A DNA stretch of 38,394 nucleotides from a virus: IMG/VR virus record IMGVR_UViG_3300028840_001730, positions 1 through 38,394 of that record; one strand, given 5' to 3'. The position numbers were made by a program, and so were the translations under genes. The notes beneath the pieces were generated by a model that was given only the letters and a program-made list of their open reading frames with translations, was not told the DNA's origin and did no database searches. This document shows positions 639 to 25,346 of the stretch, piece after piece (position 1 is the stretch's first letter; each line of letters starts with the position of its first letter).

Positions 639-772
639 AGTGTGAAAAGTGCGGGAAGAAAACGGATATTATCTGTGAGACAGATTTACAGATAGACAGA
701 CGAAAAAAGCCTAAATACAAACGGTTATGTCAAGGTTGTTACAACGAAGTATATAAGAAGCATTATGGTTAG
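635..772 (+). CDS. Small zinc-ribbon protein (45 aa), TTG start
   Basis: Seen: TTG at 635 overlaps the stop of the upstream gene (TTGA) and opens a 45-residue frame beginning LKCEKCGKK and ending NEVYKKHYG. CxxC pairs are at residues 3-6 and 32-35, typical of a zinc ribbon with a basic linker (RRKKPKYKR). There is no strong ribosome site, so translation is probably by coupling. The last codon and stop (GGT TAG) build a GTTAGGC motif at 768-774. Start codon is an inference; the cysteine pattern makes the frame likely real. Confidence 0.6.
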   Translation: MKCEKCGKKTDIICETDLQIDRRKKPKYKRLCQGCYNEVYKKHYG

Positions 773-3603: not shown

Positions 3604-3756
3604 ATGGAATGGGCTAGGATTATTGTTAAATTTCTACCATGTGTATTATTAGGAATGTATTTTGGTTTAATAATCAAGCGATGGTGGATGGGATGGGTTA
3701 TAGGAGGACCAATAGTTATTGGATGGATTTTTGTTTGTTATTTGGCATTTGAATGA
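3604..3756 (+). CDS. Small membrane protein, two transmembrane segments (50 aa)
   Basis: Seen: ATG 3604 after AAAGGAG. The product has hydrophobic segments at about residues 6-23 (IIVKFLPCVLLGMYFGLI) and 29-48 (GWVIGGPIVIGWIFVCYLAF), joined by IKRWW. It sits between NeuB and the radical SAM gene, overlapping the latter by 4 bases, so it is translated with the sugar genes. It could anchor a partner at the membrane; no family recognised. Confidence 0.65.
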   Translation: MEWARIIVKFLPCVLLGMYFGLIIKRWWMGWVIGGPIVIGWIFVCYLAFE

Positions 3757-5102
3757 AGATTCTCCTAATTAACCGAGAGTACGACAGCTTTGCCAATTGG
3801 TTCCCTACCAACTTAGCTTATATAGCTGCTTCTCTTAGGAAGCAAGGCCATGAAGTGGAGGTATACGACAATGCCCTTTATCACTGGAGTTACGATAGAC
3901 TCACAAATTATCTTGATAACACAACTTTCGATATCGTTGGTTTTGGCGTTTGCGGCGGCTATTTTGAGTATAAGCAGGCCAAGTTACTCACGGCAGCAAT
4001 TAGCAGAAGTGTTAGGCGTCCTCGGTTTAGGGTCGTTGTTGGGGGTCATCTTTTCTCTCCTGACCCTGACTATTTTCTTGATAAGTGGGACATAGATTAT
4101 GTGGTGAAAGGTGAGGGAGAGGAATTGGGTGGAATGTTGGCTGAAATAGGGACATTTCCTATAAAAGAAAAGACATGGATGCAATTTCCTCTTATTCAAG
4201 ACCTTGATACTATCCCCTTTCCAGCTTATGACTTGTTTGATTTGAATCATTACGTTCTTCACCGTTTCCATGCTCACATGAAGCGGTCTGACCGTGCCTT
4301 GCCGATGATTTCCAGCCGGGGGTGTAAGTTTAATTGCAACTTCTGCTATCGCATGGACAAAGGCCAGCGCCTAAGAAGTCCCTTAAATGTAGTCGAAGAA
4401 ATCCGTTATTTACAAAAAACCTATGACATCAACTATATATCCTTTGCGGATGAATTATTCATGGCCTCAACAGAACGGTCTATGATGATGGCCGATGCGT
4501 TAGGCCCCCTAAATATACGCTGGGATTGCATGGGTAGGTTAAACTACGCCAAACCTGGTGTGTTAAAAGCCATGAAAAGAGCAGGGTGTACCTTCATTAA
4601 CTATGGGATAGAGCAGTTTGATAATCAGGCACTCAAGGCTATGAACAAAGCCCTGACAGAAGAGATGATCGTGAAGGGGGTAGAGAACACGCTGGCCACA
4701 GGGATAAGTCCGGGCCTAAACGTAATTTGGGGTAATGTAGGAGATACATATGAATCATTATGGAAGAGTGTCGATTTTCTTTTGGCATATGATGATCAGG
4801 TTCAATTGCGTACTATCCGACCTGTTACGCCCTATCCCGGAAGTCCTTTATATGATCTCGCCGTTAAAGAAGGGCTTATTAAAGATATTGAAGACTTTTA
4901 CGAGAATAAGCACACTAATTCAGACCTAAGAACCTGCGATTTCATGGGCCTAACAGATGAAGAATTTTACAAAGCACTCAAAGCAGCCAATATCCAGCTA
5001 GCTTCAAATTACTATGAGCAATTAAAGAAGAGAACAATAAAACAAATACATAATCTGTATGATAATCGGGATGCTACATTTAGGGGGTTTAGAGCAGTAT
5101 GA
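3753..5102 (+). CDS. B12-binding-type radical SAM enzyme (449 aa)
   Basis: Seen: an N-terminal Rossmann-like B12-binding domain (residues 1-130: MKILLINREY ... VVVGGHLFSPDPD ... VVKGEGEE) and a radical SAM core starting SSRGCKFNCNFC, with the [4Fe-4S] cysteines C191, C195 and C198 in CxxxCxxC spacing. Further core motifs: ISFADELFMAS (about 225-236) and YGIEQFDNQALKAMNK. The usual DxHxxG cobalamin ligand motif is not evident, so B12 may bind base-off or not at all. Family: such enzymes do methylations, methylthiolations or rearrangements of complex substrates. Inferred: acts on the sugar, its lipid/protein acceptor or a metabolite made by this operon. Overlaps both neighbours by 4 bases. Confidence 0.9.
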   Translation: MKILLINREYDSFANWFPTNLAYIAASLRKQGHEVEVYDNALYHWSYDRLTNYLDNTTFDIVGFGVCGGYFEYKQAKLLTAAISRSVRRPRFRVVVGGHLFSPDPDYFLDKWDIDYVVKGEGEELGGMLAEIGTFPIKEKTWMQFPLIQDLDTIPFPAYDLFDLNHYVLHRFHAHMKRSDRALPMISSRGCKFNCNFCYRMDKGQRLRSPLNVVEEIRYLQKTYDINYISFADELFMASTERSMMMADALGPLNIRWDCMGRLNYAKPGVLKAMKRAGCTFINYGIEQFDNQALKAMNKALTEEMIVKGVENTLATGISPGLNVIWGNVGDTYESLWKSVDFLLAYDDQVQLRTIRPVTPYPGSPLYDLAVKEGLIKDIEDFYENKHTNSDLRTCDFMGLTDEEFYKALKAANIQLASNYYEQLKKRTIKQIHNLYDNRDATFRGFRAV

Positions 5103-5329
5103 AAGTAACGGAAACATTTTGTGATATATGTGGGAAAGGTTTGACTGATGAAGAGTGTTATAGAATTAAGGCTCACCTAATAGATATAGGAATGACCATG
5201 AAGAAAAAGCATTTATTTTTGAAATTCCAAATTGGTAATAACGACCCAGAGATTCCCGATATTTGCAAATCCTGTGGAATGGCTATTGTGGAATTTGTTA
5301 AAGAATGGAAAAAGCAATTTGCTATATAG
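5099..5329 (+). CDS. Small zinc-ribbon protein (76 aa)
   Basis: Seen: ATG overlaps the radical SAM stop by 4 bases. CxxC pairs at residues 8-11 (CDIC) and 56-59 (CKSC) bracket a 45-residue insert with a hydrophobic core (HLFLKFQIGNNDPEIPD). The C-terminus is a charged helix (VEFVKEWKKQF). This is a typical phage treble-clef-like small protein; no function assigned. Confidence 0.7.
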   Translation: MKVTETFCDICGKGLTDEECYRIKAHLIDIGMTMKKKHLFLKFQIGNNDPEIPDICKSCGMAIVEFVKEWKKQFAI

Positions 5330-5338
5330 GAGGGGAAA

Positions 5339-5728
5339 ATGACCAAGAAGACGTATTATAGAATAATAAAAGAAGCAATTAAGAAATCAGAAAATGTGTT
5401 AGGCATGAAATTGTTTCAAAGGTTATTTTTGAAGATAGCATGGAAATGGTTTAAACGATATAGAAAGTTTAAGTTTGAAAATGATTCGATTGCTACGATG
5501 GCGGGCATAATCAGCTATTATCTAATGAGTCTAAGCGGAAGAATGGTGGTTGCTAAAATAGAAATATCAGTATGTAAAGATGGACCTGGGAAAATATATC
5601 AGACTATGAATCGAACTTGTGGTGTAAGAACAGCAAAAAAGATGCTTAATGATGCAGTTATGTCCATAAATGGACAAATACCATCTACCAATCAAAAAGA
5701 CTTTTTAACAAGGGGGGAAAATGTCTAA
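5339..5728 (+). CDS. Hypothetical basic protein (129 aa)
   Basis: Seen: ATG after AGGAGGGGAAA. The N-terminal half is strongly basic and aromatic (KLFQRLFLKIAWKWFKRYRKFKF residues about 24-46), the C-terminal half mixed. No motif recognised. It uses more A/T-ending codons than the enzymes around it. It overlaps the DUF115 gene by 8 bases. Possibly membrane-peripheral through the amphipathic helix, which is inference only. Confidence 0.6.
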   Translation: MTKKTYYRIIKEAIKKSENVLGMKLFQRLFLKIAWKWFKRYRKFKFENDSIATMAGIISYYLMSLSGRMVVAKIEISVCKDGPGKIYQTMNRTCGVRTAKKMLNDAVMSINGQIPSTNQKDFLTRGENV

Positions 5729-7070
5729 CTCACAAGAAAGATTAAATACAATCAGCTTTAATAATGCTGTCCGTAAGTACTGGATTAGAGCGTGGTTGTA
5801 TAATGCAATCAAAAATCATCCCATGCTAGAAAGAAGGTACAAAGAAAAGGGAGACCAGATAGCAGCAGGGACAGAGAAATTAGAACATGCTAAACCAGCG
5901 TTAGTGTTAGGCGCCGGGCCGAGTCTGGATGAGATCGCTACCAAGATACAACACTGGAAGGGTACGGTTTTCGTGCCTAACTCACTTTGTAAATGGGCTG
6001 ATGCTATTGGGAGGCATCCAGACTATGTAGTGGCTATTGATGCCTCACGAGAGATAGGAGATGACCTTTGGGGGCCTCACTATTATGCATCTACTCTTAT
6101 CACCCATCCCTGTGTAGATCCTCACGTTTACGATGTATGGGGAGACAACCCCCTAAAGCTCATCCGTATGTTTGAGCCTGGTAACGAGATTATTAACACG
6201 ATGTATCAAACCCTCTATCCGTGGATAGGTTCATACATCATCAACTCAGGCTGCGTATCTAACTCGATGATTCTCGTGGCTAGCATGCTAGGGTATTCTC
6301 CGATCTATCTGATAGGCCACGATTTTGCGTATCCTGACGGGATTATGCGATTTCAGGACTTTGATTATAGAGGCAACTTCTGCTACTTACCCAAGAAAGC
6401 GAAGAAGATGGTTGATTTTGAGGATGCGTGGGAGCGGCCTCAACTCTTGAAGGCTGATAACGGCTTGTTGACTACCAGAACGATGATCTTCTACAAGCAG
6501 ACCTTCATGTGCAATTGGAAGCTGACCGGCGCCCAACTAGTGAATATGAGTAAGAGTACTATCCTGTCTGAGCTTCCCTTTGCTGAGTTAGACGATGTGT
6601 TAGCTTCACAGTGGGACAAGGAAAAGGCTAAAAAGCTAGCCAGATTACATAAATCAAGAAAAGAGATAGACGAGATTTGCGACAACTATCTTGTACCAAG
6701 GGGGATGTTTGCCAAGTATCATCCAGAGTTAGGCGCGATTTTGGGCATAGAGATTATCGGTGAGATGCCTAACCGAATTGCAGAAGCAGAGAAACAGCTT
6801 GAAGGGATGAAAGAAGGCTACAACACATGGGAGCCGCCTAACAAAGAAAAACCTTATTGGACAAGAAAAGATGTAACCTTAACAAAAACACCAGATTGGG
6901 AGTGGAAAGATGAACCCGATATTAATGACCCAGAGCAGAATCAAGAACAGCCGGTTTCCGCAGAAGATGTTGAAGGAAGTCCACGGCAAGAGCCTCCTGC
7001 AAATCCACCTGGATCGGCTTCAGCCGTTATTGGATACTCAGCCGGAGACAAACCATCCGCTGGCAAATGA
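5721..7070 (+). CDS. DUF115 / Maf-like protein (putative nonulosonate transferase) (449 aa)
   Basis: Role (family): DUF115 (MptE/Maf-like) proteins include the motility accessory factors that move nonulosonic acids from CMP-sugars onto flagellin, and pterin-type pyrophosphokinases. Seen: nucleotide-binding loop ALVLGAGPSLDEIA (residues 60-73), VVAIDAS (103-109), and the hallmark block SGCVSNSMILVASMLGYSP followed by IYLIGHDFAY (about 176-205). Context with NeuB and a cytidylyltransferase favours the Maf-type reading. The last 53 residues (about 397-449) are Pro/Glu/Asp-rich, look disordered, and are read in a different frame across the start of the next gene. Ribosome site AAGGGGGGAAA. Confidence 0.85.
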   Translation: MSNSQERLNTISFNNAVRKYWIRAWLYNAIKNHPMLERRYKEKGDQIAAGTEKLEHAKPALVLGAGPSLDEIATKIQHWKGTVFVPNSLCKWADAIGRHPDYVVAIDASREIGDDLWGPHYYASTLITHPCVDPHVYDVWGDNPLKLIRMFEPGNEIINTMYQTLYPWIGSYIINSGCVSNSMILVASMLGYSPIYLIGHDFAYPDGIMRFQDFDYRGNFCYLPKKAKKMVDFEDAWERPQLLKADNGLLTTRTMIFYKQTFMCNWKLTGAQLVNMSKSTILSELPFAELDDVLASQWDKEKAKKLARLHKSRKEIDEICDNYLVPRGMFAKYHPELGAILGIEIIGEMPNRIAEAEKQLEGMKEGYNTWEPPNKEKPYWTRKDVTLTKTPDWEWKDEPDINDPEQNQEQPVSAEDVEGSPRQEPPANPPGSASAVIGYSAGDKPSAGK

Positions 7071-7680
7071 TCTAATCGTTCTCATCCCCGATGTAGAGGA
7101 AGAGGACCCGCTTGAAGAGGAATGTCGGCGCCTAAACGTAAAATGTTTCCGAGGGAGTGAAGAAGATGTTTTGGACAGATTCTACCAATGCGCCCGAGAA
7201 TATAAGGCCGATCCTATCATACGACTTACTTCGGATGACCCCTTTGCAGATTGGCGAGTTATTGCTAGAGCTATTAACAAGTTCAAACGATTCAATTGTG
7301 ACTACGTATCGAACGAATGGCCTGGACGAGAAACCTATCCGGAAGGACTGGACGTACAAGTAATCAGCTTCAAACTACTAGAGGATATGTGGGAGGAGGC
7401 TAAAGAACCGGCTGAACGAGAGCATGTAGTTCCGTGGATATGGAATCACAAGGATAAGTACTACGTAAAGGAAGAAAGAAACAAGCGGGACTATTCGCAT
7501 TATAGGTGGACCGTCGATTACGCAAGTGACTTAGCTATGGTTTCGGATGTAGTGGGTTATTTTGGAGACAAACCTTTCTTTATGGAAGAGTTGATTCACT
7601 ATTGGCGTTTATATCCCTCAAAGGCAAGAACATTTCGAGATGTACAAAGAAAACAAGGAATAAAGGAAAGTATGAAATGA
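6910..7680 (+). CDS. SpsF/NeuA-like cytidylyltransferase (256 aa)
   Basis: Role (family): transfers a nucleoside monophosphate to a sugar acid, here probably making the CMP-nonulosonate donor. Seen: N-terminal nucleotide-binding signature MTQSRIKNSRFPQKMLKEV (about 6-24), equivalent to the QARxxSxRLPGKxL motif; SDDPFADW (about 108-115) as the metal-binding region; NEWPGRETYPEGLDVQVI; and a C-terminal WTVDYASDLAMV (W-T-(V/L)-D) typical of SpsF-type enzymes. The start overlaps the DUF115 gene by 161 bases in another frame; the signature motif lies inside the overlap, so the start cannot be much later. Overlaps the RNA ligase by 4 bases. Confidence 0.88.
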   Translation: MNPILMTQSRIKNSRFPQKMLKEVHGKSLLQIHLDRLQPLLDTQPETNHPLANDLIVLIPDVEEEDPLEEECRRLNVKCFRGSEEDVLDRFYQCAREYKADPIIRLTSDDPFADWRVIARAINKFKRFNCDYVSNEWPGRETYPEGLDVQVISFKLLEDMWEEAKEPAEREHVVPWIWNHKDKYYVKEERNKRDYSHYRWTVDYASDLAMVSDVVGYFGDKPFFMEELIHYWRLYPSKARTFRDVQRKQGIKESMK

Positions 7681-8294
7681 AAGAGTATAGTAAAATTGAG
7701 TCTTTATTTAATAGGGATGAAAAAACTCATAAATTTAAAGTTGGAGAATTTCGTTTACCAGAATTTCATTACTTAAAAGATAATCAATGGTTATTTACTG
7801 AAAAAGTTGATGGAACAAATATTCGAGTAATGTGGGATGGCGAATCTATTAGAATAGGTGGACGTACTGATAACGCGCAAATACCGACCTTTCTTTATGA
7901 TAGATTAGTAGAACTTTTCCCAAAAGATAAGTTTGGTATTTTTGATTGTCCAGTTTGTTTATATGGAGAAGGATATGGAGCAAAGATTCAAAAAGGAGGA
8001 GGTAATTACAAGTCAGATGGAGTTGATTTTGTTTTATTTGACGTAAAAATAGAGGAATGGTGGTTGAAATGGAATGACATAATGGATGTAGGAGCAAAGT
8101 TGCAAATTGATATTGTTCCTATTGTTGCGATAGGTACATTAGAAGATGCAGTTCAAAGAATTAGGGAAGGAATAAAGTCAGCATGGGGAGATTTCCAAGC
8201 AGAGGGGTTAGTATGTAGGCCTCTAGTGGATTTGATGGCTCGAAACGGAAAGAGAATTATTACTAAGTTAAAAACAAAGGATTTTAATGTATGA
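7677..8294 (+). CDS. RNA ligase, Rnl2-like nucleotidyltransferase (205 aa)
   Basis: Role (family): ATP-dependent joining of RNA ends through a lysyl-AMP intermediate; phage enzymes repair tRNAs cut by host defences. Seen: motif I TEKVDGTN with K43 as the adenylated lysine, motif III-like LYGEGYGAKIQ (95-105) and FVLFDVKI (118-125), motif IV AEGLVCRP (175-182) and motif V KLKTKDF (197-203). The protein stops right after motif V, so it is a bare catalytic domain. Start ATG 7677 gives the ATGA overlap; a longer frame back to 7602 is rejected. Codons are more A/T-rich than in the flanking sugar genes, suggesting separate origin. Confidence 0.88.
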   Translation: MKEYSKIESLFNRDEKTHKFKVGEFRLPEFHYLKDNQWLFTEKVDGTNIRVMWDGESIRIGGRTDNAQIPTFLYDRLVELFPKDKFGIFDCPVCLYGEGYGAKIQKGGGNYKSDGVDFVLFDVKIEEWWLKWNDIMDVGAKLQIDIVPIVAIGTLEDAVQRIREGIKSAWGDFQAEGLVCRPLVDLMARNGKRIITKLKTKDFNV

Positions 8295-9355
8295 GCTACG
8301 TCACCCAACTAGAACAAGAGTTTGCTGCAAGGGTAGGTGCTAAATATGCCATAGCCATGAACTCAGGAACGGCTACACTTCACGCCACTCTATTAGCTAT
8401 GGGAGTAGACAAAGGGGATGAGGTGATTGTTCCGGGGTTAGGCCCCATTATGACTTCGGCAGCGGTGATACAGGCCAGGGCCAAACCCGTATTCTGTGAT
8501 GTTGAGCCTCTTACTTTTACTATGGACTCTAGGGCCTCTCTGACTAAGCTAATCGGGCCTAACACAAAAGCTGTTATCTCTGTATCTCTTTACGGCCTCC
8601 CCTCCCGACTAGATGAGATTCAAGCTATTTGTAACGATCACAACCTATTCCATATCATAGACAATGCTCAGTCAGTTCTATCTACATTCCGGGGGAATCC
8701 TGTAGGGAACTATGCCCTTGCCACTTCCTATTCTTTTGAATCTTCCAAGCATATAAATGTAGGTGAAGGTGGGATAGTGACGGTTAATAATGAGTATTTG
8801 GCCCGGAAGATAAGACAGTATGGGAATCACGGTTTCCGGTGCCTAACTAAACATCCTCCTAAATCAGAACTCCAACAACTAGGATATGAACGACACGACC
8901 TGATAGGCTGGAACTATCGCATGCCAGAACTGGTTGCAGAAAATGCACTAGAACAGGTAAAAGTCCTTAAAGAAATTGTCCAAAGAAGAATAGATGCAGC
9001 CATCATTATCCGTCAAGTATTGAGGGAATATCCCTACTTTTCTCTCCAAGCGGAGCCTAACGATAGAACTAATTCTTACTGGTGTGTGGCTGCCACATAT
9101 CATCCAGGTGCAAGTGATATGACTTGGTCTAAGTTTTATAAGAGGGTAGTTGAGTTAGGCGGCGAAGGGTTTTACTCAGCCTGGCTTCCCCCTTATCAAG
9201 AGCAAGCTATCAACAGCATAGGGGATTGCCCAGGGGCAGAGTTTCTATCTACCCATTTGATGCAATTTCCCAACAACTACACCACAGGGGAAGCTAAGAG
9301 GCAAGCATATATATTAAGGAAAGTATGTGAAGAAATACATCATAACGGGAAGTGA
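8291..9355 (+). CDS. DegT/DnrJ/EryC1-type PLP sugar aminotransferase (354 aa)
   Basis: Role (family): PLP-dependent amination of a keto-sugar nucleotide, as done by PseC and LegC in nonulosonate pathways. Seen: N-terminal MNSGTATLHATLLAMGV (23-39), GDEVIVPGL (42-50), VFCDVEP (67-73), DNAQSVLS (124-131, usually D-x-A-Q) and PLP-lysine region SFESSKHINVGEGG, with K153 as the likely Schiff-base lysine. The substrate-binding end is present (YHPGASDMTWSKFYKRV). Length is near the family norm (about 370). Overlaps the ligase by 4 bases and the SDR gene by 29. Confidence 0.9.
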   Translation: MSYVTQLEQEFAARVGAKYAIAMNSGTATLHATLLAMGVDKGDEVIVPGLGPIMTSAAVIQARAKPVFCDVEPLTFTMDSRASLTKLIGPNTKAVISVSLYGLPSRLDEIQAICNDHNLFHIIDNAQSVLSTFRGNPVGNYALATSYSFESSKHINVGEGGIVTVNNEYLARKIRQYGNHGFRCLTKHPPKSELQQLGYERHDLIGWNYRMPELVAENALEQVKVLKEIVQRRIDAAIIIRQVLREYPYFSLQAEPNDRTNSYWCVAATYHPGASDMTWSKFYKRVVELGGEGFYSAWLPPYQEQAINSIGDCPGAEFLSTHLMQFPNNYTTGEAKRQAYILRKVCEEIHHNGK

Positions 9356-10520: not shown

Positions 10521-10844
10521 CTACACATTAGATTCATAATACAGAAAGTCAAATGCTTGGTTAGGCAGCAAATGGATAGCTGTGTATTTTCCGGCGCCTA
10601 ACTCACATCTTGTCGGATGATACCATTTCCCATTAACCCATGCTGATACTACCATCACGCCAGGATTGACACTCACTATCAGAACACTATCGGGCAGCAC
10701 CAACCCAGCACATACATCGTTGATATAGCAGGCGATGATTTGTTCGGTATGGTTGAAGAACTGTATTTGTGCTGGATCTGCTTCGGGCAGGGTGGTACAC
10801 ATCGCCAGGCTGGCGCCTAACAATAAAACTATTATCCGTTCCAT
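10521..10844 (-). CDS. Putative lipoprotein (107 aa)
   Basis: Seen: signal peptide MERIIVLLLGASLAMC with a lipobox-like LAMC (Cys16), then an exported beta-rich domain with a cysteine pair (IACYINDVCAGLVLP). Compositionally it resembles small domains that bind surface partners. Inferred: anchored to the host envelope, possibly for superinfection exclusion. It carries both motif orientations (10560, 10596, 10815). Overlaps the pentapeptide gene by 13 bases. Confidence 0.72.
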   Translation of the reverse strand: MERIIVLLLGASLAMCTTLPEADPAQIQFFNHTEQIIACYINDVCAGLVLPDSVLIVSVNPGVMVVSAWVNGKWYHPTRCELGAGKYTAIHLLPNQAFDFLYYESNV

Positions 10845-11518
10845 TCTTCTGCCTCTTCTCTAGTAAGAAAGAAGTGTATACCGTGGCTACACTCTACTCT
10901 GATATCAGGATCATAGCTGTCCGGGTAAACTGTTTTGCCAATTTCATACAAAATAGAACCATACCCCGAACCGGCAGATGACTGTGGCTCATTTCCCTGG
11001 ATAGCTAATACAATAGCTGCGCTAGCTCTACATTTTCTTCCTATCAATGATGCTGTACGTTTAGCCCATGCGGGGATAAGCAAATGGATGATTTTACCAT
11101 TTACTTTCTTGTATACTCTCAATTCTCCATGTTGGGGTATTTGAAAATGAGGTAATTTCGCTCCCCCAAGGTTCGCTCCCCGAAGGTCCGCTCTCCCAAG
11201 GTTCGCTCCCTCAAGGTTCGCTCCCCGAAGGTCCGCTCTCCCAAGGTTCGCTCCCTCAAGGTCCGCTCCCCGAAGGTCCGCTCCCCGAAGGTTCGCTCCC
11301 TCAAGGTCCGCTCCCCGAAGGTCCGCTCTCCCAAGGTTCACTCCCTCAAGGTCCGCTCTCCGAAGGTCCGCTCTCCCAAGGTTCGCTCCCTCAAGGTCCG
11401 CTCCCCCAAAGTTCGCTCCCCGAAGGTCCGCTCCCCGAAGGTCCGCTCTTTCTCCCCTACCATTATTTAACCATTTTGCATGATCGTCTAATACTTTCTT
11501 TAGTTCTTCTTTGTTCAT
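10832..11518 (-). CDS. Pentapeptide-repeat protein with DUF5758-like C-terminal domain (228 aa)
   Basis: Seen: after a 20-residue helical lead (MNKEELKKVLDDHAKWLNNG), residues about 23-127 are some 20 tandem pentapeptides of form A(D/N)LxG/R, which fold as a right-handed quadrilateral beta-helix. The C-terminal 100 residues (VYKKVNGKIIHLLIP ... ECSHGIHFFLTREEAEEW) match the domain that commonly follows phage pentapeptide repeats. Role unknown; some pentapeptide proteins mimic DNA and bind gyrase. The repeat is nearly identical at DNA level (15-bp units), so recent expansion or contraction is likely. Confidence 0.85.
   Translation of the reverse strand: MNKEELKKVLDDHAKWLNNGRGERADLRGADLRGANFGGADLEGANLGRADLRRADLEGVNLGRADLRGADLEGANLRGADLRGADLEGANLGRADLRGANLEGANLGRADLRGANLGGAKLPHFQIPQHGELRVYKKVNGKIIHLLIPAWAKRTASLIGRKCRASAAIVLAIQGNEPQSSAGSGYGSILYEIGKTVYPDSYDPDIRVECSHGIHFFLTREEAEEWNG
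11158..11455 (-). repeat. 15-bp tandem repeat array coding the pentapeptides
   Basis: About 20 units of a 15-bp repeat (plus-strand form close to AAGGTCCGCTCCCCG, with TTCGCTCCCTC variants). Period 15 is exact, and variants alternate in a regular three-unit pattern (Leu-Arg-Gly, Leu-Glu-Gly, Leu-Gly-Arg codings). It lies wholly inside the pentapeptide gene. Confidence 0.9.
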
Positions 11519-11715
11519 TTTCCACCGCCTAACACATAAACTTCTTCTATAGGATACATACTTCTATTCCCATTATCATACTTCACGACTACATGACATC
11601 TGCCGTGACAGTAGACAAACCTAGTGACTGTACCGACTTTTTTAGGCCAGGTTAGGACTAGCTGACCATCAAAATAGTCCGGTGGTTCCTTGGTAACTCT
11701 TGAGCCTACTTGCAT
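11515..11715 (-). CDS. Hypothetical SH3-like small protein (66 aa)
   Basis: Seen: ATG (complement 11715) after GATAGGGGGTTAAT. Product MQVGSRVTKEPPDYFDGQLV ... TVTRFVYCHGRCHVVVKYDNG is rich in beta strands with G/V/R at turns, the look of a small SH3/KOW-like barrel. One CxxxC pair (CHGRC). No specific family. Its leader holds the tRNA-like element at 11740-11803. Confidence 0.65.
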   Translation of the reverse strand: MQVGSRVTKEPPDYFDGQLVLTWPKKVGTVTRFVYCHGRCHVVVKYDNGNRSMYPIEEVYVLGGGK

Positions 11716-11739
11716 ATTAACCCCCTATCTTAAGTGTGA

Positions 11740-11803
11740 CGCCTAGTTAGGTCTTGAACCTAAACCTACACCCAGCGGGCGAGCGCTCCATAGTCCCTAG
11801 GCG
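11740..11803 (-). other. tRNA-like structured element without a D-arm
   Basis: Read on the minus strand the 64 nt fold as: 7-bp perfect acceptor-like stem (CGCCTAG with CTAGGCG), 11 unpaired nt in place of a D-arm, a 5-bp stem with two G-U pairs and a 7-nt loop (GCCCGCT), 5-nt variable loop, then a 5-bp T-arm-like hairpin TTAGG-TTCAAGA-CCTAA with the TTCRA loop pattern. Against a working tRNA: no D-arm, C instead of U at position 33, no encoded CCA. It may be a degenerate tRNA, a tRNA mimic or a leader structure; it lies directly before the ribosome site of the 11515-11715 gene. Confidence 0.35.
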
Positions 11804-11937
11804 CCTATATATTCTTCATTCCATCCATATTCTTGATCTTTTCTTGAAACGTATTAATGGCCATGCCAATTTGCGAGACAATAAAACATAGAACCGTTTA
11901 AACACGAAATTGTGCCAACCTATTAATTTGTAATATT
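11804..11937. other. Non-coding gap, nothing clear
   Basis: Between the tRNA-like element and the next minus-strand gene I see only a 19-codon minus-strand frame (MAINTFQEKIKNMDGMKNI) without a ribosome site. No hairpin or promoter of note. Confidence 0.4.
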
Positions 11938-12114
11938 TCATCCCCATCCTCCTGTCATAGTAATATCTATCTCCCTTCTCAGTTCTGCTAGTCGATGGGT
12001 TGTATCAGCTGGGAGATTTTCTTTTTCTATTAGGCGCTGAATCCTGAGCCGGTCGGCGCCTAACCCTAAATACTTCTCTTCTATTCTTCGGTTAAACTCT
12101 TGCCAATCTTCCAT
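11938..12114 (-). CDS. Hypothetical helical protein (58 aa)
   Basis: Seen: MEDWQEFNRRIEEKYLGLGA then RLRIQRLIEKENLPADTTHR, two predicted helices with a turn, ending TMTGGWG. ATG at 12114 overlaps the previous gene's TAA (TAATG) and has AGAAGGAA upstream, so it is preferred over the ATG two codons earlier. No family recognised. Confidence 0.6.
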   Translation of the reverse strand: MEDWQEFNRRIEEKYLGLGADRLRIQRLIEKENLPADTTHRLAELRREIDITMTGGWG

Positions 12115-12269
12115 TACCATTTCCTTCTCTGTGCTATTCCCTTATTCATGGCTTCATGGAAAGCTTTAGCAGATACTCTGTTCTCAACATATAACCGTAT
12201 GGCGGTATGTTGATCACCCTCATATGCTGCTACCTCAATTAGTTTTAAAACCTTTTCTCGTTTTGTCAT
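12114..12269 (-). CDS. Hypothetical helical protein (51 aa)
   Basis: Seen: ATG (complement 12269) with ATAGGGGG 7 bases upstream. Product MTKREKVLKLIEVAAYEGDQ ... NRVSAKAFHEAMNKGIAQRR is fully helical by composition and basic at both ends. It ends in a TAATG overlap with the next gene. Too short for most gene finders; function unknown. Confidence 0.62.
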   Translation of the reverse strand: MTKREKVLKLIEVAAYEGDQHTAIRLYVENRVSAKAFHEAMNKGIAQRRKW

Positions 12270-12276
12270 AACTCAT

Positions 12277-12310
12277 CCCCCTATCCTTTTATTTAGTCCT
12301 GGTGGACTAT
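12277..12310 (-). repeat. Leader repeat, short copy C
   Basis: 34 bp matching the first part of copies A and B (CCCCCTATCC through the TTTATTTAGTCC segment to GGTGGACTAT on the plus strand, one mismatch). It carries the AGGGGG ribosome site and the small AGTCC/GGACT-type hairpin but lacks the larger hairpin. Located just before the start of the 12114-12269 gene. Confidence 0.85.
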
Positions 12311-12320
12311 TGCTTCAAAA

Positions 12321-12482
12321 CTACTCTTCAGTAAGCATCTGAATATTTTTCTTATCTTCTTTTTCGCGAATCTCGTTTTCTTTTTGTTCTCGGATCATGC
12401 AATCCTCACAGATTGCCCATTTCGCTCCACCCTCGGAATAGCTTCCACTTGTCAGTTTTCCGCATCTTGGGCATTCGTGCAT
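12321..12482 (-). CDS. Zinc-ribbon protein (53 aa)
   Basis: Seen: ATG (complement 12482) after GAGGGGGAAAAG. MHECPRCGKLTSG carries CxxC at residues 4-7, and a second pair CEDC is near residues 25-28; a charged helix follows (EQKENEIREKEDKK). A clear small zinc ribbon, probably nucleic acid or protein binding. Confidence 0.7.
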   Translation of the reverse strand: MHECPRCGKLTSGSYSEGGAKWAICEDCMIREQKENEIREKEDKKNIQMLTEE

Positions 12483-12529
12483 CTTTTCCCCCTCATGTAC
12501 TTATTAACCGTTCATTGGCAACGATAGGT

Positions 12530-12742
12530 TTAATCGCAATAGGCCACACTACCGATTTGGGCTAGATTGGATACATGTACTTTGGTCGGTATTTCAGGAT
12601 TATTCCAATCCACTACTGCGATCATGCCGTTTAATTCTGTGACAATTCCCCTTGCCATAGGTATTGGTCCAGTATATGTACCTGTAGACCGTAACCACCT
12701 GCGAGAATAGCCAACCTTGTCACCAATTTTGATGGTATTCAT
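12530..12742 (-). CDS. Hypothetical SH3/KOW-like protein (70 aa)
   Basis: Seen: ATG (complement 12742) with GATAGGGGGATGAT from repeat copy A as ribosome site. MNTIKIGDKVGYSRRWL then TGPIPMARGIVTELNGM and AVVDWNNPEIPTKVHVSNL: alternating strands with a central 'G-(I/V)-V' turn, typical of small phage SH3-like or KOW-like barrels. No enzyme motif. Function unknown. Confidence 0.7.
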   Translation of the reverse strand: MNTIKIGDKVGYSRRWLRSTGTYTGPIPMARGIVTELNGMIAVVDWNNPEIPTKVHVSNLAQIGSVAYCD

Positions 12743-12747
12743 ATCAT

Positions 12748-12826
12748 CCCCCTATCCTTTTATTTAGTCCTAGTGGACTATAGCCTAGGCCCGGAGTTGC
12801 ACCGGGCCTAACAACTGGACTAGGCT
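12748..12826 (-). repeat. Structured leader repeat, copy A (79 bp)
   Basis: Identical to copy B except for two bases. Minus-strand order: outer AGCCTAG, GTTAGGC motif, a 9-bp perfect hairpin (TAGGCCCGG, 7-nt loop TGCAACT, CCGGGCCTA), a smaller hairpin (AGTCC-ACTA-GGACT) and then AAATAAAAGGATAGGGGG, the ribosome site of the 12530-12742 gene. AGCCTAG can instead pair with CTAGGCT after the hairpin, giving a 7-bp acceptor-like stem around a T-arm-like loop. There is no U-tract, so it is not a standard terminator. It overlaps the stop of the upstream gene. Confidence 0.85.
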
Positions 12827-13203
12827 TCAATTACCTCAGACAGAAAAAGTTCATACACTTGGTATAGATAGTCTTTGATATCGTTTCTATCTGATCCGGT
12901 TATTCTCATATCGACGCCTAACACAAATGATGGTTTTACAATCAGTTTGTGGTCGGTCCACCCATCATAGAATCCTGCGTCATTCATGTGATGGTATGAG
13001 AAGTTAAATACTAATCGATCCGGTTTAGACTCAATTAAATCAAGCTCTGTACCAGAATCGATCCCACTACCACTAGGTGCATCATCCATGATTTCTTTAA
13101 GCTTTTCAGTATGCTTGTCAAACCATTCTTTGTTATTGGTCTTAGCGCAGGTTTGCCTTGCATCAAGTATTGACGCAATCACTTCTACTCTTTTCCTGTT
13201 CAT
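12820..13203 (-). CDS. Hypothetical protein (127 aa)
   Basis: Seen: ATG (complement 13203) with GATAGGGGGTTACAG from repeat copy B. N-terminal helices (MNRKRVEVIASILDARQTCA ... HTEKLKEIMDDAPSGSG) precede a mixed alpha/beta part (DRLVFNFSYHHMNDAGFYDG ... DIKDYLYQVYELFLSEV). The middle resembles small phage proteins with an aromatic 'FYDGWTDH' patch; no family assigned. Its stop TAG lies inside repeat copy A. Confidence 0.7.
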   Translation of the reverse strand: MNRKRVEVIASILDARQTCAKTNNKEWFDKHTEKLKEIMDDAPSGSGIDSGTELDLIESKPDRLVFNFSYHHMNDAGFYDGWTDHKLIVKPSFVLGVDMRITGSDRNDIKDYLYQVYELFLSEVIEA

Positions 13204-13209
13204 CTGTAA

Positions 13210-13288
13210 CCCCCTATCCTTTTATTTAGTCCTAGTGGACTATAGCCTAGGCCCGGAGTTGCACGGAGCCTAACAACTGGACTAGGCT
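13210..13288 (-). repeat. Structured leader repeat, copy B (79 bp)
   Basis: Second long copy; 77 of 79 bases match copy A. The two changes (plus strand ACCGGG to ACGGAG) weaken the 9-bp hairpin to a bulged stem but leave the outer pairing, the small hairpin and the AGGGGG ribosome site for the 12820-13203 gene intact. It overlaps the TAG of the first gene of the operon. Confidence 0.85.
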
Positions 13289-13514
13289 AGTCGCGAATAC
13301 CATATTCTTCGCAATAGGCCAAAAAAGCTTGATGCATTAAAAATCCTGTATCGGTTTCGCACCACGATTGGGAGTCTTTGATTTCTGTCGCTATTCCTGC
13401 GAGTAATTTTCCGGTCTTAGCAAAGCGCTCCATTAAAGGGTATTCTTCTCTGCCCATAGCCCATTCACTAGCGAACGAGCGAAAAACTGATTGCGCCCAT
13501 CCAGTACTTCTCAT
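13287..13514 (-). CDS. Hypothetical protein (75 aa), first gene of minus-strand operon
   Basis: Seen: ATG (complement 13514) with GGAGGATGAA upstream. MRSTGWAQSVFRSFASEWAM ... GLLAGIATEIKDSQSWCETD is not used as a claim of identity; the product is helical with a short acidic end (YCEEYGIRD). It is the first gene after the minus-strand promoter, so it should be the earliest product of this unit. No family recognised. Confidence 0.65.
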   Translation of the reverse strand: MRSTGWAQSVFRSFASEWAMGREEYPLMERFAKTGKLLAGIATEIKDSQSWCETDTGFLMHQAFLAYCEEYGIRD

Positions 13515-13530
13515 TTCATCCTCCTATCAA

Positions 13531-13544
13531 TTCGTTTTAACGAA
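13531..13544. promoter_or_regulatory. Candidate operator: perfect 6-2-6 palindrome
   Basis: TTCGTT-TT-AACGAA lies just downstream of the expected start point of the minus-strand promoter and before the first gene's ribosome site. The position suits a repressor site in the initially transcribed region; it could also form a short hairpin in the mRNA. Confidence 0.4.
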
Positions 13545-13555
13545 CATCTATATAG

Positions 13556-13584
13556 ATTGTCGCACAGATAATATCACTTGTCAA
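13556..13584 (-). promoter_or_regulatory. Sigma70-like promoter for the minus-strand operon
   Basis: On the minus strand: -35 TTGACA (complement of 13579-13584), 17-bp spacer, -10 GACAAT (complement of 13556-13561) preceded by TGC, an extended -10 pattern. Predicted start is near 13549, giving a leader of about 35 nt to the ATG at 13514. Confidence 0.6.
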
Positions 13585-13592
13585 GGGATTTA

Positions 13593-13617
13593 TTGAAAAA
13601 ACTTCACTTTTTTTCAA
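13593..13617. promoter_or_regulatory. A/T-rich inverted repeat between the divergent promoters
   Basis: TTGAAAAAA and TTTTTTCAA form a perfect 9-bp inverted repeat around CTTCACT. It lies between the two promoters and could be a regulator site, a curved DNA element or a bidirectional stop for upstream-drifting transcription. Confidence 0.4.
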
Positions 13618-13650
13618 GATGATACTTAACAGATGAGTAGGTGATATATC

Positions 13651-13678
13651 TTGACAATTATAAAGAAATGTGTATAAT
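13651..13678 (+). promoter_or_regulatory. Sigma70 consensus promoter for the structural operon
   Basis: TTGACA (13651-13656), 16-bp spacer, TATAAT (13673-13678): both hexamers match consensus exactly. Predicted start is near 13684-13686, only a few bases before ATG 13689, which implies a (nearly) leaderless transcript for the first gene. Confidence 0.75.
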
Positions 13679-24551: not shown

Positions 24552-24556
24552 GGATA

Positions 24557-24583
24557 AGGCTAGCCCCCTCACGGGGGCGGCCT
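24557..24583 (+). terminator. Intergenic hairpin after the decoration gene
   Basis: Stem AGGC-TA-GCCCCC, loop TCAC, GGGGGC-G-GCCT, ending in a GCCTAAC motif (24580-24586). G/C-rich but no T-run, so a weak or factor-dependent terminator or an mRNA-stabilising stem between highly expressed genes. Confidence 0.55.
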
Positions 24584-24602
24584 AACTATAAGGAGGAAAA
24601 AT

Positions 24603-25293: not shown

Positions 25294-25325
25294 TAGTTAG
25301 GCCCTGGCCGTCCGGGGCCTAACTA
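25294..25325 (+). terminator. Long perfect hairpin built from paired GTTAGGC motifs
   Basis: TAGTTAGGCCC (25294-25304) pairs perfectly with GGGCCTAACTA (25315-25325); three more inner pairs (T-G, G-C, G-C) leave the 4-nt loop CCGT. The arms are a GTTAGGC and a GCCTAAC facing each other. No T-run follows (ATCTGAAAAAG), so it may be a factor-dependent stop or RNA-protecting stem. It separates the head proteins from the A/T-rich beta-helix genes. Confidence 0.7.
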
Positions 25326-25346
25326 ATCTGAAAAAGAGAAAAATAG

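Follow-up and report, generated by a model that had tools for sequence, protein, structure and literature searches.

A probable gene-start linker duplicated within a minus-strand operon of small genes in an uncultivated phage

Results

Genes and features of the locus

The window analysed here is a 38,394-bp IMG/VR virus record whose terminase, portal and head families have matches in tailed phages; relatives of its terminase among named phages are less than 35% identical. A minus-strand operon of small genes, most of which lack a family match, starts at a likely TTGACA promoter near 13584. Three of its gene starts, and probably a fourth, are preceded by related sequence elements, which we label C1 to C4 (Table 1).

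Table 1 Positions of the element copies, the operon genes and the promoters in the window.
Feature	Position	Strand	Remarks
C1	13210-13288	-	full 79-nt linker upstream of the 127-aa gene; 5' end overlapped by the stop codon of the 75-aa gene
C2	12748-12826	-	full 79-nt linker upstream of the 70-aa gene; stop codon of gene 12820-13203 inside
C3	12277-12313	-	37-nt partial copy, 3' half only (6-bp hairpin and AATAAAAGGATAGGGGG); upstream of the 51-aa gene
C4	about 11717-11805	-	divergent fourth member; upstream of gene 11515-11715
75-aa gene	13287-13514	-	first gene of the operon; without a linker element of its own
127-aa gene	12820-13203	-	between C1 and C2, cassette-like
70-aa gene	12530-12742	-	downstream of C2
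51-aa gene	12114-12269	-	downstream of C3
Gene after C4	11515-11715	-	downstream of C4
Likely operon promoter	13556-13584	-	TTGACA, 17 nt, GACAAT; sequence pattern only
Consensus promoter	13651-13678	+	divergent from the minus-operon promoter

Several further features were observed around this operon. A 25-bp near-match, GATATTATCTGTGNGACA, lies at 658-682 (plus) and 13558-13582 (minus), close to where each of the two early transcription units begins and in mirrored orientation, and is possibly a shared promoter or operator. The 5' leader of the minus operon contains TTCGTTAAAACGAA at 13531-13544, and the matching place in the relative L006 (6510-6523, minus) reads TTCGCCAAGGCGAA; this pair possibly represents a compensated 5' hairpin. 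Further into the minus strand, 15-bp tandem repeats (11112-11501) fall within the ORF 10832-11518, which encodes a pentapeptide-repeat protein with a DUF5758 C-terminus. Two products of the early plus operon (3753-9355), a B12-binding radical SAM protein and a protein of the aminotransferase family, make up a metabolic load that is unusual for a phage.

The copies and their placement

The initial annotation had reported two 79-bp copies with 77 of 79 positions identical, and we confirmed these as C1 and C2, both on the minus strand. The short copy that it gave as 34 bp also exists, its length being 37 nt (35/37 identical), so that the reported figure was close. C1, C2 and C3 each end, as had been claimed, in the AGGGGG ribosome site of the next gene, at a spacing of 5-7 nt from the ATGs at 13203, 12742 and 12269, respectively. 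The longest exact repeat in the window measures 55 nt, as opposed to 13-16 nt in order-3 Markov sequences, which excludes chance and identifies the copies as real duplications.

The placement of the long copies is exact from stop to start: C1 and C2 both span everything between the stop codon of the gene before and the ribosome site. Since they begin in or beside the stop codon of the preceding gene, each copy amounts to nearly the entire intergenic gap. Together, copy identity and placement support the view that the element is duplicated and fixed at gene starts. The accompanying suggestion of a mobile element found no such support beyond this operon: exact 25- and 18-mers gave no copies in unrelated places among IMG/VR viral contigs, and searches of phages and plasmids gave none either.

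On the minus strand, C2 reads AGCCTAG-TCCAGTTGT-TAGGCCCGG-TGCAACT-CCGGGCCTA-GGCTA-TAGTCC-ACTA-GGACTA-AATAAAAGGATAGGGGG, and every copy supplies the ribosome site GGATAGGGGG. The part common to C1, C2 and C3 includes a 6-bp hairpin, TAGTCC-ACYA-GGACTA, which was absent from the initial annotation, as were the overlap of C1 and C2 with the upstream stop codon and the divergent copy C4. We also considered an intrinsic terminator and rejected it: the stems are followed by AATAAAAGG, a G+C stem with a T run is missing, and no terminator was called at the element.

Searching both strands of the window, we found GATAGGGG at just four sites, all of them gene starts of the minus operon, corresponding to C1-C4. 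The next-best window match of a covariance model built from C1-C3 lies at 11717-11783 (rough E 0.023). At this place C4 presents a stem CGCCTAG/CTAGGCG around the hairpin TTAGG-TTCAAGA-CCTAA, followed by the ribosome site GATAGGGGG, and shares the ending GATAGGGGGTTA with C1. We regard C4 as a probable, though divergent, member of the element family.

Relatives of the phage and homologues of the linked genes

A terminase search yielded three related IMG/VR contigs (L004, G002 and G003), and a capsid search gave the same three. L004 encodes the same terminase and capsid proteins as the window, with the linker region outside its coverage. G002 and G003 are syntenic with the window, have a terminase protein about 80% identical to that of the window, and show about 97% identity over most of the stretches that the two have in common. 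The element is absent from G001-G003, including the relatives' syntenic operon; in G003 the minus operon carries mostly different genes. Exact 25- and 18-mers of the leader had no match in IMG/VR viral contigs, and none was found in phage or plasmid records.

Relatives of the 127-aa protein were present in one viral contig and eleven phage records, at 28-51% identity. They are scattered over phages of Sphingobium, Brevundimonas, Achromobacter, Ruegeria and others, and this sporadic spread is typical of accessory genes. The 51%-identical homologue resides on an unrelated contig (L010) without such a leader, indicating that gene and linker are separable. No relatives of the 75-aa and 70-aa proteins were found in the viral contig and phage record searches. 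A strain pair with and without the 127-aa gene was likewise not found, and recombination between C1 and C2 was not seen.

Start-associated repeats elsewhere in the phage group

The same architecture recurs with other sequences. A 142-aa gene of G003 lies between two 32-nt copies of TCACAAAGAAGCCAAGCGGGTAAAGGAGYAGG, which match at 31/32 positions and are unrelated in sequence to C1-C3; each copy carries a ribosome site just 5' of a start codon (L008, 15409 and 15880). The sister G002 is without that three-gene block of G003, the junction falling exactly at ATGAAA start codons. The difference between the two contigs comprises three genes and its boundaries do not coincide with the 32-nt repeats, which counts against a cassette model.

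In the window itself, the early plus operon contains a start-associated repeat different from the linker, GCACAAGGAGG, at 172, 373 and 402. Part of this recurrence is a perfect 29-bp tandem duplication (355-412) that covers the last codons of a gene and a ribosome site. The repeats of G003 and of the plus operon suggest that this phage group habitually duplicates gene junctions along with the start signals they contain, a different sequence being involved each time.

Discussion

A duplicated gene-start linker

Based on these observations, we consider it likely that the element is an intercistronic gene-start linker duplicated within one operon of small phage genes. Each copy would provide a strong ribosome site 5-7 nt 5' of the start codon, while one or two small hairpins ahead of it would take up the space left after the preceding stop codon. 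These hairpins may be passive, spacing the cistrons and keeping the ribosome site free of upstream structure, and perhaps they also slow exonucleases. Identical linkers would further allow linker-plus-gene cassettes to be gained, lost or duplicated by recombination, and the 462-bp C1-gene-C2 unit may be one such cassette. The habit of gene-junction duplication in this phage group makes a passive linker joining modular genes the best reading of the element. The near-identity of C1 and C2 could also reflect a very recent duplication without function.

The closest published case is that of the start-associated sequences (SAS) and their extended forms (ESAS) in Cluster K mycobacteriophages, ribosome-site repeats that lie 3-7 nt before the starts of non-structural genes and whose function is unknown (PLoS One 2011, PMC3203893). 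There are 11-19 SAS copies per genome, in the non-structural half, with a 13-bp consensus, GGGATAGGAGCCC, that is conserved across subclusters; some are extended upstream by an inverted repeat (the 17-bp pair of ESAS), and the upstream stop codon may fall inside (PMC3203893). Our linker is similarly a ribosome-site repeat, 5-7 nt from its starts as compared with 3-7 nt for SAS and likewise in a single orientation, all copies lying on the minus strand; it serves unrelated small genes and may include the upstream stop codon. As in ESAS, an inverted repeat lies directly upstream, namely the 6-4-6 dyad in C1-C3 and a larger hairpin in C1 and C2.

On the other hand, the linker copies read AAGGATAGGGGG, with only GGATAGG in common with GGGATAGGAGCCC. 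They number three clear copies and one divergent copy in one operon of a window that is possibly an incomplete genome, their flank extends up to 79 nt with two hairpins instead of the 17-bp inverted-repeat pair, and they belong to an unrelated phage group, in whose examined members the linker was not found. Thus, the architecture agrees while consensus and copy number disagree, suggesting that the linker works like SAS/ESAS and is not a member of that family.

Intercistronic hairpins are also carried by other phage and bacterial operons, in the form of REP-like mRNA-stabilising hairpins and T7-type processing hairpins. These resemble the linker in being small G+C-rich hairpins between a stop codon and the next ribosome site. 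However, the linker hairpins are not REP by sequence, and with 6-11 bp their stems fall short of the usual length of RNase III sites.

If the linker reading holds, the assembly of early operons from units of one small accessory gene and its linker also occurs outside the mycobacteriophages, in an uncultivated phage group, and the repeated start signal in such units offers a concrete way for genes to be acquired or lost precisely at their boundaries. It also raises the question of whether repeated start signals are merely strong ribosome sites or the targets of a common regulator.

Operator, switch and tRNA-like alternatives

One alternative is that a phage regulator uses the dyad TAGTCC-ACYA-GGACTA as its DNA operator, a role also proposed for the ESAS inverted repeats, whose authors favour DNA binding (PMC3203893). 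The perfect 6-4-6 dyad is kept in three copies with the loop as its sole variable part, which is consistent with such a role; the same invariance of the stem, however, leaves DNA and RNA readings indistinguishable. The dyad hexamer does not occur in the region of the operon promoter (13556-13678) and the promoter search marked no site at the copies, so we regard an operator as unlikely.

Another alternative concerns the folding of the RNA. The initial annotation had proposed translational control through two alternative folds of the long copies. Both folds exist on paper, but the 9-bp hairpin, formed by TAGGCCCGG and CCGGGCCTA, is perfect in C2 only: the C1 version has one U-G pair and one C x C mismatch. 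Both copies retain the complete outer stem AGCCTAG/CTAGGCT. Compared with shuffled sequences, C2 folds more stably (z -3.2) while C1 does no better (z -1.2).

A translational switch would require the 5' arm CCTAGTCC to pair either with CTAGGC, giving the outer stem and a free ribosome site, or with GGATAGGG, hiding the site, perhaps under the control of a phage protein or ligand. In agreement with this, the ribosome site is engaged by GUCC-GGAU and CCU-GGG pairings in the lowest-energy fold of C2, and only about 0.1 kcal/mol separates the outer-stem fold of C1 from its site-hiding fold. In C2, by contrast, the outer-stem fold lies about 6 kcal/mol above the minimum (the two are about equal in C1), which does not describe a balanced switch. 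The predicted accessibility of AGGGGG is at or above that obtained with shuffled upstream sequence, and C3 stands at the same kind of gene start without the whole 5' arm. Moreover, both differences between C1 and C2 fall within the 5' arm of the 9-bp hairpin, where they do not compensate each other and one breaks a pair. Translational control through alternative folds is therefore not borne out, given these uncompensated differences, the C1 stability and a ribosome site that is not predicted to be hidden, and the searches of IMG/VR, phage and plasmid records gave no homologue of the element in which the two folds might be seen to covary; we judge a switch improbable, and the evidence for a structured control element is weak. 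Similarly little probability attaches, in our assessment, to a plug-and-play model whereby newly acquired accessory genes each receive a copy of a structured ribosome-site module (outer stem, hairpin and dyad) at their start and so come under common post-transcriptional control.

Finally, the likeness of one hairpin to a tRNA T-arm, also pointed out in the initial annotation, was not significant against controls. ARAGORN at normal stringency and Rfam gave no tRNA or RNA family at the element; relaxed ARAGORN called 18 'tRNAs' across the window, and a stem-loop descriptor matched 7 places in the window, compared with 0-7 in random sequence. With these results at chance level, we rejected a tRNA or tRNA-like element. 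A mimic of the tRNA acceptor/T-arm minihelix, serving to bring in RNase P or Z for intergenic cleavage of the mRNA, is accordingly very improbable: in C2 and C4 the outer 7-bp stem does adjoin a hairpin with a 7-nt loop (TGCAACT and TTCAAGA) despite different stem sequences, but the CCA end is absent and C3 is without the stem.

The GTTAGGC motif

C1 and C2 each contain one GTTAGGC, a word with 51 occurrences in the window, where an order-2 model predicts about 3 (about 17-fold enrichment), and with the extended form GTTAGGCGCC. It is enriched on both strands, in genes and gaps, in genes of both directions and in several frames. In most pieces of G002 and G003 (L005-L009), GTTAGGC or overlapping forms also rank among the top words. 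Most aligned sites are not common to the window and G003, suggesting that the density of the motif is kept while single sites turn over. The late-gene gaps 24552-24602 and 25294-25346 carry GTTAGGC-type hairpins, and L005 and L006 have hairpins in the same places with changed sequence and retained pairing. The presence of the word in the leader and in these two late-gene hairpins indicates that the 9-bp hairpin may be one case of a phage-wide habit.

Dispersed motifs of the HIP1 type in cyanobacteria (PMC6604393, PMC3025956) are alike in that a short word is strongly over-represented on either strand, within genes as well as between them. They differ in that the word is another one and GTTAGGC is not a full palindrome; in addition, the host of the phage was not identified by searches with the capsid protein or the motif-hairpin pattern. 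Since the linker copies merely contain GTTAGGC, this likeness is a side matter.

The form GTTAGGC is that of integron attC core sites. We observed 18 copies of the word in L023, an 8-kb Gemmatimonadaceae contig from a G+C-rich genome, and because of the shared form these copies are perhaps an attC array.
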